Shown here: in pieces, positions 7,252 to 29,061 of the stretch
How positions within the stretch are numbered: the first letter of the stretch is position 1
How the letters are laid out: every line of letters begins with the position of its first letter
NCBI GenBank assembly: GCA_017524385.1
Contig: JAFWSS010000122.1
Location: 1-38,323 of the forward strand
DNA from: Prevotella sp.
Lineage (GTDB): Bacteria > Bacteroidota > Bacteroidia > Bacteroidales > Bacteroidaceae
Reading direction: 5' to 3'
Length of the DNA: 38,323 nt
Notes under the pieces: generated by a model
Told to the model about the DNA's origin: nothing
Database searches by the model: none
The model's input: only the letters and a program-made list of their open reading frames with translations
Program-made: the position numbers and the translations under genes

Positions 7252-7478
7252 ACCTTTGGCTTCGCGAAGGTACTCCCGCTCGGAAAAACTCAAATAAATT
7301 CGGCTTTCCACTCGCTTATTCGTACCTTTGGCTTCGCCGAAGGTACTCCCGCTCGGAAAAACTCAAATAAATTTGGCTTTCCACTCGCTTATGCGTACCT
7401 TTGGCTTCGCCGAAGGTACTTCCGCTCGGAAAAACTCAAATAAATTTGGCTTTCCACTCGCTTATGCGTACCTTTGCA
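7252..7478 (+). repeat. Tandem 73-bp promoter-bearing repeats (3 units plus a fourth start)
   Basis: Units start at 7252, 7324, 7397 and 7470 (spacing 72, 73, 73). Each unit contains an ACCTTTG -7-like box, a hairpin (for example 7322-7346 and 7395-7419, GTACCTTTGGC / GCCGAAGGTAC), then TCCCGCTCGGAAAAA, an AT-rich part and CTTTCCACTCG. Units 2 to 4 are preceded by a -33-like TTTGG or TTCGG about 20 nt upstream. The array lies upstream of aroB. ORFs through it are by-products of the repeat. Confidence 0.85.
7445..7478 (+). promoter_or_regulatory. Proximal promoter of aroB
   Basis: TTTG (7445-7448), a 20-nt spacer, then TACCTTTGCA (7469-7478). It is the best match of the tandem set, because the repeat breaks from GGCTTCG to CATGCAGG right after the box. 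The leader to aroB is about 150 nt with a small CCCTT/AAGGG hairpin near 7500. No known riboswitch was recognised. Confidence 0.65.
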
Positions 7479-10818: not shown

Positions 10819-10834
10819 TTAAATCAATTACATT

Positions 10835-11020
10835 ATGAAATATATCATTCCAACCAGCAAGGTTCTGTCAGTGAATACAAGACATTCCGTACTTGAAGAA
10901 GAGCCAATTTTGGCCACATCTGAAGAGGATCGCCCTGTAGATCCAGGAGATTACTCAAACAAGAGCCTGGAGTTCGATGACGCTGTTGACGATTTGTTTG
11001 GAGGAAAGGTAAAGTATTAA
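10835..11020 (+). CDS. Small acidic peptide, copy 1 (61 aa)
   Basis: The sequence begins MKYIIPTSKVLSVNTRHSVL and ends SLEFDDAVDDLFGGKVKY. There is no signal peptide, membrane segment or known domain; the peptide is rich in Asp and Glu. It is 16 nt after the large exported protein and so probably on the same transcript. It is nearly identical to the next gene (5 amino-acid differences, all in residues 8-37) and shares both ends with the third peptide. The conservation of start, frame and spacing argues that it is a real gene. The function is unknown; a structural partner, a regulator or a precursor peptide are all possible and none is shown. Confidence 0.75.
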   Translation: MKYIIPTSKVLSVNTRHSVLEEEPILATSEEDRPVDPGDYSNKSLEFDDAVDDLFGGKVKY

Positions 11021-11037
11021 TTTAAATCAATTGCATT

Positions 11038-11223
11038 ATGAAATATATCATTCCAACCTGCAAGGTTCTGTCAGTGAATACAAGACGTTCCGTACTTGAA
11101 GAAGAACCAATATTGATCACATCTGAAGAGGATCGCCCTTTAGATACAGGAGATTACTCAAACAAGAGCCTGGAGTTCGATGACGCTGTTGACGATTTGT
11201 TTGGAGGAAAGGTAAAGTATTAA
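11038..11223 (+). CDS. Small acidic peptide, copy 2 (61 aa)
   Basis: This is a tandem paralogue of the preceding gene. Differences are S8C, H17R, A27I, V35L and P37T; only two of the changed codons are silent. It starts MKYIIPTCKVLSVNTRRSVL and ends DDAVDDLFGGKVKY. The Cys at position 8 is shared with the third peptide (PVCKV) but not with copy 1. It lies 17 nt after copy 1 with the same duplicated leader. No known domain; function unknown. Confidence 0.75.
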   Translation: MKYIIPTCKVLSVNTRRSVLEEEPILITSEEDRPLDTGDYSNKSLEFDDAVDDLFGGKVKY

Positions 11224-16919: not shown

Positions 16920-16998
16920 TTTAATTGGGAGTTAAAGGGGAGTTTTTTAAGGAGTTATAGGGGAGTAAAAGGGGAGTAAAAAGGGAGTTAAAGGGACA
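16920..16998. repeat. GGGGAGTAAAA-type degenerate repeats inside the men cluster
   Basis: About seven units of GGGAGTTAAAG, GGGGAGTAAAA and similar lie in the 176-nt gap between menD and menB. In the sense of the men transcript this is a pyrimidine-rich leader ahead of menB. No promoter box was found in 16908-17083. Confidence 0.6.
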
Positions 16999-26100: not shown

Positions 26101-27177
26101 ATGAAAGAGAACCTGACCGACAAGCGAATCGCCTTGCTGCTCTCTGGCGGCGTCGATAGTTCCGTGGTGCTCCACGAGCTATGCTCGCAGGGGCTTCACC
26201 CCGACTGTTTTTACATCAAAATCGGTCCGGAGGAGGACGAGGAGTGGGACTGCTCCTCAGAGGAAGACATGGAAATGTGCACCGCCCTTGCCCACCGCTA
26301 CGGCGTACGCCTCGAGGTGGTGGACTGCCATCATGAGTACTGGGACCGTGTGACCCGCTACACGATGGACAAGGTGCGTGCCGGGCTCACCCCCAATCCA
26401 GATGTGATGTGCAACCGCCTCATCAAGTTTGGTGCCTTCGATGAGAAAGCAGGCCACGACTACGACCTCATCGCCACAGGGCATTACGCACAAACGGAAA
26501 TCATCGACGGGAAGAAATGGCTGGTCACCAGCCCCGACCCGGTGAAAGACCAAACCGACTTCCTGGCTCAAATCGAGGACTGGCAATTGAAGAAAGCCCT
26601 CTTCCCGATAGGCCATTATTTGAAAGAAGAGGTGAGGAGCATCGCTGAGCGCGAGCACCTGGTCAACGCCCGACGGAAAGACTCCCAAGGCATCTGCTTC
26701 CTTGGGAAAATCAACTATAACGAATACATCCGCCGTTACCTCGGTGAAAATCCCGGCGACGTGCTGGAACATGAGACAGGGAAACTGATTGGCCGCCATC
26801 GCGGACTGTGGTTCCACACCATCGGGCAGCGCCACGGCCTGGGCTTCGGCGGCGGTCCGTGGTTCGTGGTGAAAAAAGACATGGAACGCAACATCCTATA
26901 CGTGAGCAAGGGATACGAGCCCCAAACGGCCTACAAGGATGTTTTCCGCATCCATGCTTTCCATTACCTCACGGAAGAGGTGACCTTGCGTGATGTCACC
27001 TTCAAGATACGACATACGCCAGAGTTCCACCACGCCGTGCTCGACAGCATCGGTCCCGGTGAGTATGTCGTCCATTCCGAGCACCCCATCCAAGGGGTGG
27101 CTCCCGGGCAGTTCTGCGTGGTCTACGACACCGACCACCACCGCTGCTTCGGCTCGGCGGAAATATATTATGATTGA
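26101..27177 (+). CDS. mnmA: tRNA-specific 2-thiouridylase MnmA
   Basis: This 358-aa enzyme puts sulfur on U34 of tRNAs for Lys, Glu and Gln. It has the PP-loop LLLSGGVDSSVV (residues 12-23), Cys104 in NPDVMCNRLIKFG, and Cys199 in KDSQGICFLG; these are the catalytic pair. TIGQRHGLG and the C-terminal beta domain ending SAEIYYD are also present. Tandem placement with lysS groups two tRNA-Lys functions on one transcript. It is last in the operon, and the stop codon lies inside a heptamer repeat patch. Confidence 0.95.
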   Translation: MKENLTDKRIALLLSGGVDSSVVLHELCSQGLHPDCFYIKIGPEEDEEWDCSSEEDMEMCTALAHRYGVRLEVVDCHHEYWDRVTRYTMDKVRAGLTPNPDVMCNRLIKFGAFDEKAGHDYDLIATGHYAQTEIIDGKKWLVTSPDPVKDQTDFLAQIEDWQLKKALFPIGHYLKEEVRSIAEREHLVNARRKDSQGICFLGKINYNEYIRRYLGENPGDVLEHETGKLIGRHRGLWFHTIGQRHGLGFGGGPWFVVKKDMERNILYVSKGYEPQTAYKDVFRIHAFHYLTEEVTLRDVTFKIRHTPEFHHAVLDSIGPGEYVVHSEHPIQGVAPGQFCVVYDTDHHRCFGSAEIYYD

Positions 27178-27219
27178 AGATTGAAGATTGAAGATTGAAA
27201 ATTGAAGATTGAAGATTGG
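27173..27219 (+). repeat. Heptamer ATTGAAG repeats after mnmA
   Basis: Six to seven near-perfect copies of ATTGAAG begin at the mnmA stop codon. A short echo (AAGATTGAAGATTGAG) occurs at 36814-36829. Confidence 0.75.
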
Positions 27220-27260: not shown

Positions 27261-27290
27261 AATAGGGAAAAACCCCGGAGAAATAGGGAT
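27261..27290 (+). promoter_or_regulatory. 21-bp direct-repeat element, site A (two copies)
   Basis: AATAGGG occurs at 27261-27267 and 27282-27288, exactly 21 bp apart, with CCCCGGA between. The same element occurs on the minus strand at 29012-29061. The last repeat ends 32 positions before the -7 box and just upstream of the -33 box, the usual place for an activator. Confidence 0.65.
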
Positions 27291-27297
27291 AGCACCA

Positions 27298-27329
27298 TTG
27301 GAGGTGAAAAAAAAAGTCCTACCTTTGCC
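27298..27329 (+). promoter_or_regulatory. Promoter of the 27369 outer-membrane gene
   Basis: TTG (27298-27300), a 19-nt spacer, then TACCTTTGCC (27320-27329). The leader is about 40 nt. Confidence 0.7.
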
Positions 27330-27368
27330 ATCGTAAACAAGATATAAAACCCTCTAAAACAGAAAAAG

Positions 27369-28079
27369 ATGAAAAGGACAATGACACACCTCATGGCAGC
27401 CCTTTGCGTGCTCGCCCTGACAGCCACCTTGCCCGCGCAAGCACAGACACGTCATCGTGGCAGATACACTCCTCCAGCTCCTCGCGGCGGCTACTCCACA
27501 CATTCCTCCCGCAGTTACAGCTACGCACCCAACACGTATTTCGGTTTCCGCTTCGGCCTCTCGGCATCACACATCAATTCTGATGCTCCTGACCTGAACG
27601 GCAGTTCCAGCAAGACCGGGCTCAACGTGGGTGCCGTGGTAGGCGTCCAATTGGCTCCGCAAGCCCCGCTGTTCTTCGAGACGGGCCTGGAATACTCTGA
27701 GAAAGGTGGAAAGGGCAAATTAGGGGGAGACAAGTTCTCCATCGGCCTCAACTACCTCGAAGTGCCTCTCACCTTGAAATACTCGGCCTATGTGGCTCCC
27801 GCCACCGCCGTGGAACCCTTTGTCGGCGGCTATCTGTCCTGCGGCGTGGGTGGCAAGGTGAAGGATTATGGAAATCGTGAAGCATACAGTTCGTTCGACG
27901 ACCACTATGGGGCAAATTTCAAACGCTTTGATGGCGGCATCCGCGTGGGATGCGGCTTGGCCTATGAGATGCTCTATGCGGAACTCGGCTATGACTTCGG
28001 CCTCACGAACATCGGCGACAACGCCTTCGACGACACGCACAACGGTGCACTCTTCCTCAACATCGGCGTGAACTTCTAA
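27369..28079 (+). CDS. Outer-membrane beta-barrel protein (PorT-like), 236 aa
   Basis: The signal peptide is TMTHLMAALCVLALTATLPA, cut near AQAQ. A basic, Tyr/Ser-rich linker follows (residues about 27-55), then an eight-strand-like barrel with alternating strands such as YFGFRFGLSASHI, FFETGLEYSEKG and YLEVPLTLKYSAY, ending GALFLNIGVNF with a terminal Phe. It fits the small outer-membrane barrel families of Bacteroidetes (PorT / outer membrane beta-barrel domain); no specific function can be given. It converges on another barrel gene (28158-28889) that has the same 21-bp upstream element, which suggests co-regulation. Confidence 0.8.
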   Translation: MKRTMTHLMAALCVLALTATLPAQAQTRHRGRYTPPAPRGGYSTHSSRSYSYAPNTYFGFRFGLSASHINSDAPDLNGSSSKTGLNVGAVVGVQLAPQAPLFFETGLEYSEKGGKGKLGGDKFSIGLNYLEVPLTLKYSAYVAPATAVEPFVGGYLSCGVGGKVKDYGNREAYSSFDDHYGANFKRFDGGIRVGCGLAYEMLYAELGYDFGLTNIGDNAFDDTHNGALFLNIGVNF

Positions 28080-28107
28080 ACTATCAGAAATCACCTCATC
28101 CCATGAC

Positions 28108-28136
28108 AAATGCAGCCTTTTCAGGCTGCATTTTTT
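28108..28136 (+). terminator. Terminator between convergent barrel genes
   Basis: AAATGCAGCCT (28108-28118) pairs with AGGCTGCATTT (28123-28133), a 4-nt loop, then more T. It is strong for the plus-strand gene and may also end the minus-strand gene. Confidence 0.8.
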
Positions 28137-28157
28137 CTTGCTGTGCGGAAAACCACT

Positions 28158-28889
28158 TTAGAAATACACTCTCACCCCCGCGAGCAAACTGACACGCTCG
28201 ATGCCATATACATCATCCTCATCTTTGATGTAATAGCCTTTGGGTTCAAACTGGAAGAGGGTGTTCCAATTGAGTTGCAAGCCAAAGGCCACATTTTTAG
28301 CCACTCCGTATTCCACCCCGACACCTACCATCGCAGCAAAATCCTTCTCGGTGTGCGTATATTGGAATCCTTTCTCCTTCAAGATGCCACATCCCAGACC
28401 AAATTCCAGTTCGGCGCGAACCAGCCCTTTGCTGTCGAGATAGTCACTGTAGGCCACCAACGGTCCCACATACTTGATTTCCACATTCAAGTCCCTGTCG
28501 AACGAAGTGTTGAACAAATACGCACTTGCTCCCAATCCAAAACCGGAACGCCATAAATGTTGGTACTCGACACCATAATCCAGGCCCAACTTGTATTCAT
28601 AGAAATTCCTCGGAGTCTCCACTTCCGAACAGACGAGCGAAGGGCCGACATTCACCTTGACGACATTACACGGGACACGCTTTTCATCAAACGGGAACCT
28701 ATTTACATCCTCCAATTTGATGGTCGGCAGTCTTTTCCCTGTCACAGTCAAGTCATCGGAAGCCATGTCTTCACTTGACTGGCCTTTACTCACAGGTTCC
28801 ACCGAGGACAACAGTTTCGAAGAAGAACAACCTACGACCAAAGCCGCCAACACACTCAAGGAAAAAAAGGTAAAACAACGTGAAAACAT
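28158..28889 (-). CDS. Predicted lipoprotein with outer-membrane barrel-like domain, 243 aa
   Basis: The ATG at 28887-28889 gives FSRCFTFFSLSVLAALVVGC, a type II signal peptide with Cys21 as the lipidation site (LVVGC). Longer frames to 29003 would add 38 residues and break this signal. After a polar region with TIKLEDVNRFPFDEKR, residues about 95-243 look like beta-hairpins of a small barrel (GFGLGASAYLFN, VGVGVEYGVAKNVAFGLQLN), ending VSLLAGVRVYF with a terminal Phe. A lipidated N-terminus on a barrel-like protein is unusual. It shares the 21-bp upstream element with the convergent barrel gene at 27369. Confidence 0.7.
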   Translation of the reverse strand: MFSRCFTFFSLSVLAALVVGCSSSKLLSSVEPVSKGQSSEDMASDDLTVTGKRLPTIKLEDVNRFPFDEKRVPCNVVKVNVGPSLVCSEVETPRNFYEYKLGLDYGVEYQHLWRSGFGLGASAYLFNTSFDRDLNVEIKYVGPLVAYSDYLDSKGLVRAELEFGLGCGILKEKGFQYTHTEKDFAAMVGVGVEYGVAKNVAFGLQLNWNTLFQFEPKGYYIKDEDDVYGIERVSLLAGVRVYF

Positions 28890-28970
28890 ATCCAAGAATT
28901 TTATAGGGTTATAATCAAGAAAGATGGAAGCCAAGGAAGCCAAACCACTGCCCATGGCCTCCATCTTTGT

Positions 28971-29003
28971 TGCAAAAATGCAAAGAAATCTTAAATTCAT
29001 CAA
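28971..29003 (-). promoter_or_regulatory. Probable promoter of the 28158-28889 gene
   Basis: Minus strand CATTTTTGCA (28971-28980) matches the -7 box except its first base, with TTG (29001-29003) 20 nt upstream. Its distance to the 21-bp repeats (32) equals that at site A, which supports the call despite the imperfect box. TTTCTTTGCA at 28979-28988 is an alternative. Confidence 0.5.
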
Positions 29004-29011
29004 GAGTTTTT

Positions 29012-29061
29012 CCCTAATATTCCGGGGATTTACCCTAATGCTCCGGGGGATTATCCCTATT
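29012..29061 (-). promoter_or_regulatory. 21-bp direct-repeat element, site B (three copies)
   Basis: On the minus strand AATAGGG, ATTAGGG and ATTAGGG start at 29061, 29039 and 29018 (steps of 22 and 21), with CCCCGGA between copies. It is the same pattern and promoter distance as at 27261-27288. This is a likely binding site for a shared regulator. Confidence 0.65.

Follow-up and report, generated by a model that had tools for sequence, protein, structure and literature searches.

Tandem TAGGG repeats in front of two envelope genes

The window (the whole stretch of 38,323 nucleotides analysed here, contig JAFWSS010000122.1 of a Prevotella sp. genome) has two genes for predicted envelope proteins, one on each strand, and each of them is preceded by tandem TAGGG repeats and a -7 box (Table 1). 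The original prediction had named both as outer-membrane barrel genes. This was borne out for the plus-strand gene, in which the PF13568 match is above the Pfam cut-off. It is less sure for the minus-strand gene, because its PF13505 match (E 3e-5) is below the cut-off (24.7 against 28.7 bits) and a lipobox, VVGC, is present as judged by eye.

Table 1. Positions of the repeats, promoter elements and downstream genes in the window
Feature	Position	Strand	Remarks
Probable tandem operator, two TAGGG units (27263-27267 and 27284-27288), period 21	27261..27288	+	First unit bipartite, TAGGGAAAAACC
Likely -33 element TTGG, adjoining the operator	27298..27301	+	Assigned by spacing, counted by hand
-7 box TACCTTTG, 31 nt past the last TAGGG	27320..27327	+	
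Predicted regulated gene 1, outer-membrane beta-barrel protein, 236 aa	27369..28079	+	PF13568 (E 2.1e-16), PF13505 (E 7.8e-8)
Predicted regulated gene 2, predicted lipoprotein with a beta-barrel-like domain, 243 aa	28158..28889	-	PF13505; lipobox
-7 box CATTTTTG, 5′ end 28980, 31 nt past the last TAGGG	28973..28980	-	
Probable tandem operator, three TAGGG units (5′ ends 29059, 29037 and 29016), periods 22 and 21	29012..29061	-	

The repeat had been described as AWTAGGG-N5-CCCCGGA, in two copies on the plus strand and three copies on the minus strand. These counts hold for TAGGG. The longer unit is complete only once on the plus strand and twice on the minus strand. The CCCCGGA heptamer is found after the first of the plus-strand copies and after the first two of the minus-strand copies, and is absent after the last copy on either strand. 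The coordinates confirm that the last TAGGG ends 32 positions (31 intervening nucleotides) before the -7 box on both strands. The predicted TAnnTTTG form of this box does not apply to the minus strand, where the box is CATTTTTG, and in the relative L352 a box CAATTTTG lies just as far away, at 31 nt (counted by eye).

Among the three TAGGG-N16/17-TAGGG pairs of the window, two have NAnnTTTG at 30-32 nt. A control of 1000 first-order Markov windows gave 0.038 pairs on average, with no window that had three pairs and none that had a pair and a box together, so a chance origin of the pairs is implausible by this control. The single loose unit (TAGGG-N5-CCCCGGA with 3 mismatches) was found 27 times in the window against 25.75 in shuffles, which is the chance level. 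The special feature is the TAGGG pair along with its distance to the promoter, and not the single unit.

Some other repeats were also recorded in the window. An array of GATTGAA heptamers (27172-27218) lies directly upstream of the plus-strand repeats, at the end of an MnmA-type gene (26101-27177). A 73-bp unit is present in three tandem copies at 7252-7476, a 203-bp tandem duplication at 10819-11223, and an 11-bp minisatellite at 16927-16995, of the form (GGGGAGTTAAA)n and ending in GGGACATATG or GGGACGTATG, which is unrelated to the TAGGG site.

The site in homologous promoters

The geometry was analyzed in homologues of the window barrel protein which were fetched by protein alone, without the motif. 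Out of 330 homologues 80 were kept, and 79 promoters were usable after one locus (L420, at a contig end) was dropped. These promoters are a free test of the geometry, whereas the 123 sites of the logo and the target sites described below were found by the motif and their gap of 29-33 nt is therefore set by construction.

A relaxed form of the site was present in 66 of the 79 homologous promoters, against 7 of 1523 background windows, and absent from the other 13; the strict form was found in 29, including all 17 of the closest homologues (L348-L364). TAGG pairs were tracked with any period from 8 to 40 allowed and were found in 64 promoters, of which 60 have a period of 21 (18 promoters) or 22 (42 promoters), in agreement with the predicted period of 21-22 bp. 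With TAnnTTTG allowed anywhere from 0 to 90 nt, 48 of 51 boxes lie at 31 nt (30 boxes) or 32 nt (18 boxes) and three lie elsewhere; no TAnnTTTG at 30-33 nt is present in 16 of the 64 promoters that have a TAGG pair. Within the 433,447 bases of homologue loci there are 44 TAGGG pairs, and 31 of these are followed by a box at 30-32 nt; the reversed pattern has 8 matches there.

CC is present in 62 of the 64 promoters with a TAGG pair and CCCCGGA in 1, so the heptamer, which had been taken as a part of the site, lies outside it and only its CC is conserved. In distant homologues the second unit is often TAGG followed by another base. The logo of 123 sites gives WWTAGGGAWWWYCCYM for unit 1 and TAGGGAWWW with a weaker CC for unit 2; the period is 22 in 92 sites and 21 in 31 sites, and the gap is 31 in 85, 32 in 36 and 30 in 2. 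The site is TAGGG-A-W3-Y-CC, repeated at a period of 21 or 22 bp, and its last TAGGG stops 31 (or 32) nt short of TAnnTTTG.

Two rival explanations were weighed on this evidence. One is a functionless mobile or slipped repeat, and Tandem Repeats Finder does list 29008-29059 as an array. Such an origin is hardly conceivable, as the cores are kept while the spacers diverge and the distance to the promoters is fixed. Since the flanks and the downstream genes differ between sites, with many different target genes, the site is not a mobile repeat. The locus L352 keeps both window sites with different bases between the TAGGG cores, and its minus-strand site, of two units and not three, lies ahead of the only homologue of the minus-strand gene found outside the own genome (70% identity). 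The other explanation takes the repeats as a component of the promoter, such as an upstream element recognised by an alternative sigma factor, which would suit the rigid distance to the -7 box. We regard it as very improbable, because the -7 box is an ordinary TAnnTTTG and because the variation in unit number (2 or 3) and period (21 or 22) would be easier to reconcile with a protein bound to the DNA than with contact by a sigma factor.

In 7 of the 79 homologous promoters (L387, L402, L407, L409, L412, L415 and L424) the sequence GTTAAAC-N17/18-GTCTAA is present without a TAGG pair; it was found in none of 1668 background windows and nowhere in 1.36 Mb of other loci. It resembles a sigma-E-like ECF promoter.

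Distribution of the site and predicted target genes

By protein matches the window belongs to a genome of the rumen Prevotella type (97% identity to Prevotella sp. RGIG8056). The own genome (5.05 Mb, in 272 contigs with 6.6% contamination) was scanned with a sharp pattern derived from the logo and the window sites (AGGG-N-WW-NN-CC, GGG and TTTG at the right distance). Seven sites were obtained against none for the reversed pattern, and all seven are ahead of proteins predicted by eye to be exported: a DLYF/YNRR secreted protein, an LTDKMA secreted protein, a glycine-zipper lipoprotein, a small lipoprotein, the two window proteins and a secreted LRR protein. Further promoter-linked sites beside envelope genes are what the original prediction had expected from such a scan. 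Looser scans of the same genome gave mostly noise, with 12 matches against 8 reversed and 28 against 17 reversed. By our own count 18 of these 28 matches are the 11-bp minisatellite (e.g. L019, L024, L026 and L035).

The distribution across taxa was surveyed with the pattern TAGGG-N16/17-TAGGG-N30-32-TAnnTTTG. Among 200 genus genomes 190 have the site, and one reversed-control match was noted. Among 241 family genomes 98 have it, spread over 16 of 30 genera, and the reversed control matched in five genomes. In the order it was found in 3 of 295 genomes drawn; outside the family this is 1 of 291, about the reversed-control level (five control matches). By genus label the site was found in 16 of 16 genomes of g1, 6 of 6 of g2, 15 of 15 of g13 and 3 of 15 of g3, and the strict site in none of the genomes scanned from g12 (15), g15 (15) and g22 (14). 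As far as sampled, the site is a Bacteroidaceae trait. It is also not scattered: in 528,422 bases of regulator-gene loci TAGGG pairs are confined to a single place, in L265, and the reversed pattern has 4 matches.

A description of the site was not found in the open-licence literature searched. In the accessible parts of the papers on RprY and HaeR TAGGG occurs in primers only, and the accessible part of the Bacteroides thetaiotaomicron iModulon paper has no matching motif. The PhoP motif of Riemerella, given as TTTAACA in the accessible part of its source, was rejected as unrelated to the TAGGG site.

For the target genes 137 distinct sites were read, which had been returned by the pattern scan or chosen by position, and not by gene. 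By a simple rule the ORF which the site faces has a signal peptide or lipobox at 128 of them and lacks both at 7, and at the remaining 2 there is no ORF of 60 aa. Among ORFs of at least 150 aa, 117 of 119 targets are called exported against 73 of 154 control ORFs of the same loci, by a home-made rule and with a control set which may include spurious ORFs. In L178 the protein behind the site is a flippase-like membrane protein. A word search placed 76 of the 137 targets in three groups, namely DLYF/YNRR proteins (36), LTDKMA proteins (26) and glycine-zipper lipoproteins (14).

The Pfam search was done on 115 proteins, consisting of 113 of the 114 class-B exported targets and the two window proteins; a doubtful ORF (L117), 14 class-A targets and 9 others were left out. 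The families found were Gly-zipper_Omp (11), OMP_b-brl_2 (7), DUF4476 (6), OMP_b-brl (6), BamE (5), SIMPL (3), Peptidase_M48 (3), OmpH (1) and META (1), and at least 45 of the proteins have no Pfam family at E 0.001. Families of folding, proteolysis and assembly are a minority of these matches, and barrels or LRR proteins alone would not indicate stress.

Autoregulation through the site was considered, but no regulator gene was seen directly behind it at any of the 137 sites. In one g2 genome (L173, 2229-3855) the site precedes an operon of a small membrane protein, an ECF sigma factor as second gene, and a membrane protein which may be its partner. The DLYF/YNRR gene of the genus (L073, 5229, and 13 other class-A sites) has a second TAnnTTTG about 8 nt past the last TAGGG; here the activator site would overlap this second promoter, possibly giving a switch between repression and activation.

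Candidate regulators and the proposed envelope response

We consider it likely that a transcriptional activator of the Bacteroidaceae uses the repeats as its tandem operator, in control of a putative envelope-homeostasis or envelope-stress regulon. This reading draws on the observed site, its geometry and conservation, its near-restriction to the family and the classes of its targets, from which we infer activation by a site-bound regulator. The common activator proposed from the window alone is well supported by the geometry fixed in promoters fetched without the motif, the genus-wide occurrence, the exported targets, and the seven own-genome sites against none.

In the proposed mechanism each bipartite unit, WWTAGGGAWWWYCC, would be contacted at TAGGG and again at CC, roughly one helical turn further on, and two or sometimes three units spaced by 21 or 22 bp would lie on the same face of the DNA. 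The last unit would abut the -33 region, where the activator may touch RNA polymerase at TAnnTTTG promoters 31-32 nt downstream. A last unit at -33 with a rigid distance to the -7 box, along with a slightly variable unit number and first spacing, fits the need of a class II activator. The predicted activator would turn on exported envelope proteins, that is glycine-zipper lipoproteins, BamE-like and Skp-like proteins, M48 protease, SIMPL and META proteins and beta-barrels, and also two large uncharacterised secreted families.

The original prediction had pointed to a LytTR-type regulator as the protein which binds the 21-bp direct repeats. In the accessible part of PMC6193735 LytTR operators are direct repeats of 9-11 bp close upstream of -35, mostly with 11-13 bp between the repeats, and in one Bacteroides LytTR operon repeats of 11 bp, spaced by 11 bp, precede TATCTTTG. 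The TAGGG site has this format in its two direct repeats about 21-22 bp apart, close to two helical turns, beside -33/-35. TAGGGAWWW(YC) also fits the LytTR repeat size, yet CCYM beyond it is conserved as well in unit 1, in which conservation extends to 14 bp with two boxes, against the 9-11 bp of the LytTR repeats described there.

Domain scans for LytTR covered the own genome along with 20 further genomes; a tree was built from 30 regulators, and a profile of a divergent group was run over 24 genomes, 17 of them site-bearing. In favour of LytTR, two tested genomes of the site-free genus g12 gave no LytTR match at E 0.001, whereas all five tested genomes of the site-free g22 and g15 carry LytTR regulators. 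No nearby TAGGG pair was found at 58 of 59 LytTR loci. The exception (L265, 455-501, the same as L458, 5355-5401) has three inverted TAGGG units with period 21 between the genes of a membrane LytTR protein and an exported protein, 3′ of the LytTR gene, in a site-rich g2 genome (G073), and the exported-protein gene has the box TACCTTTG. The locus of another membrane LytTR gene, in G031, has no TAGGG units. The L265 locus is a lead for LytTR which shifts the odds too little to alter them.

No receiver-type LytTR group was common, above the cut-offs used, to the genomes G489, G479, G342, G339 and G014. G489, which has a single LytTR, and G479 have group i, G342 and G339 are without it and have a degenerate group ii, and G014 has another type. 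Group iii gave strong matches (E < 1e-60) in 7 of the 24 genomes, one of these seven being site-free. Because no LytTR orthologue group is common to the site-bearing genomes examined and the 14-bp unit fits AraC-type (HTCS) operators equally or better, the LytTR attribution is weakened, and such a regulator now appears unlikely. As a separate observation, the LytTR response regulators of L149 (G342) and L260 (G339) have a receiver without the usual acidic and phospho-acceptor residues (IIDEDPEA, LAIHM).

An AraC-type regulator is a candidate, and one of neither this nor the LytTR type may be entertained tentatively. GppX was considered as a candidate from the literature. Two contact boxes are a mark of AraC-type binding. 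The information in unit 1 spans TAGGGAWWWYCCYM in two boxes, within the range of 12-16 bp of AraC-type operators, and is weaker in unit 2. In the accessible part of PMC3878776 the HTCS operators of Bacteroides are direct repeats averaging 21 bp apart with units of 12, 14 or 16 bp, so the 21-bp direct repeat is equally this published form and the TAGGG site (60 of 64 pairs at 21 or 22) shares both its spacing and its unit size. The bipartite 14-bp unit fits these operators at least as well as those of LytTR, and on this ground HTCS operators are favoured. A difference is that the HTCS regulons described there serve polysaccharide use, whereas the TAGGG site is ahead of envelope genes in many species. 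No HTCS gene was seen beside the site among the neighbours listed. Among the 70 of 215 AraC-type domains read, no clearly conserved orthologue was found, and the best cross-genome pairs look HTCS-type.

A regulator of the NarL/LuxR type, binding each unit as a 14-bp palindrome TAGGGAWWTCCCTA in the manner of RcsB, is quite doubtful. Unit 1 is a full palindrome at many sites, while the second unit is non-palindromic. The alignment of one orphan NarL-type regulator, which has an atypical receiver, covered 13 genomes (L222, L226, L227, L229, L234, L235, L238-L242, L248 and L249); its recognition helix differs in two site-free g12 genomes, but it is nearly identical in the site-free genera g22 and g9. 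No site was found in any of the 30 GerE loci read.

Whichever protein binds it, the site marks a target list which resembles a mixture of the outputs of sigma-E, Cpx and Rcs of Escherichia coli. The overlapping gene kinds are Skp/OmpH, BamE, M48 protease, META (HslJ), SIMPL (YggE) and glycine-zipper lipoproteins, while the operator and promoter type of the E. coli regulons differ from those of the TAGGG site. To our knowledge, envelope stress control in Bacteroidota is largely unmapped. It is an idea of slightly less than even chance that the site belongs to an undescribed general envelope-stress response of Bacteroidaceae, with an activator unlike the known envelope regulators and with the barrel gene of some lineages moved to a sigma-E-like ECF promoter.

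The sharply defined operator, present in 190 of the 200 genus genomes, together with the target list provides a handle for isolating the regulator by DNA pull-down and for testing the regulon. If the ECF promoter is true, the barrel gene has switched between two envelope-linked controls. If the regulon is true, two large uncharacterised secreted families (36 and 26 of the 137 targets) would be placed in envelope biology.
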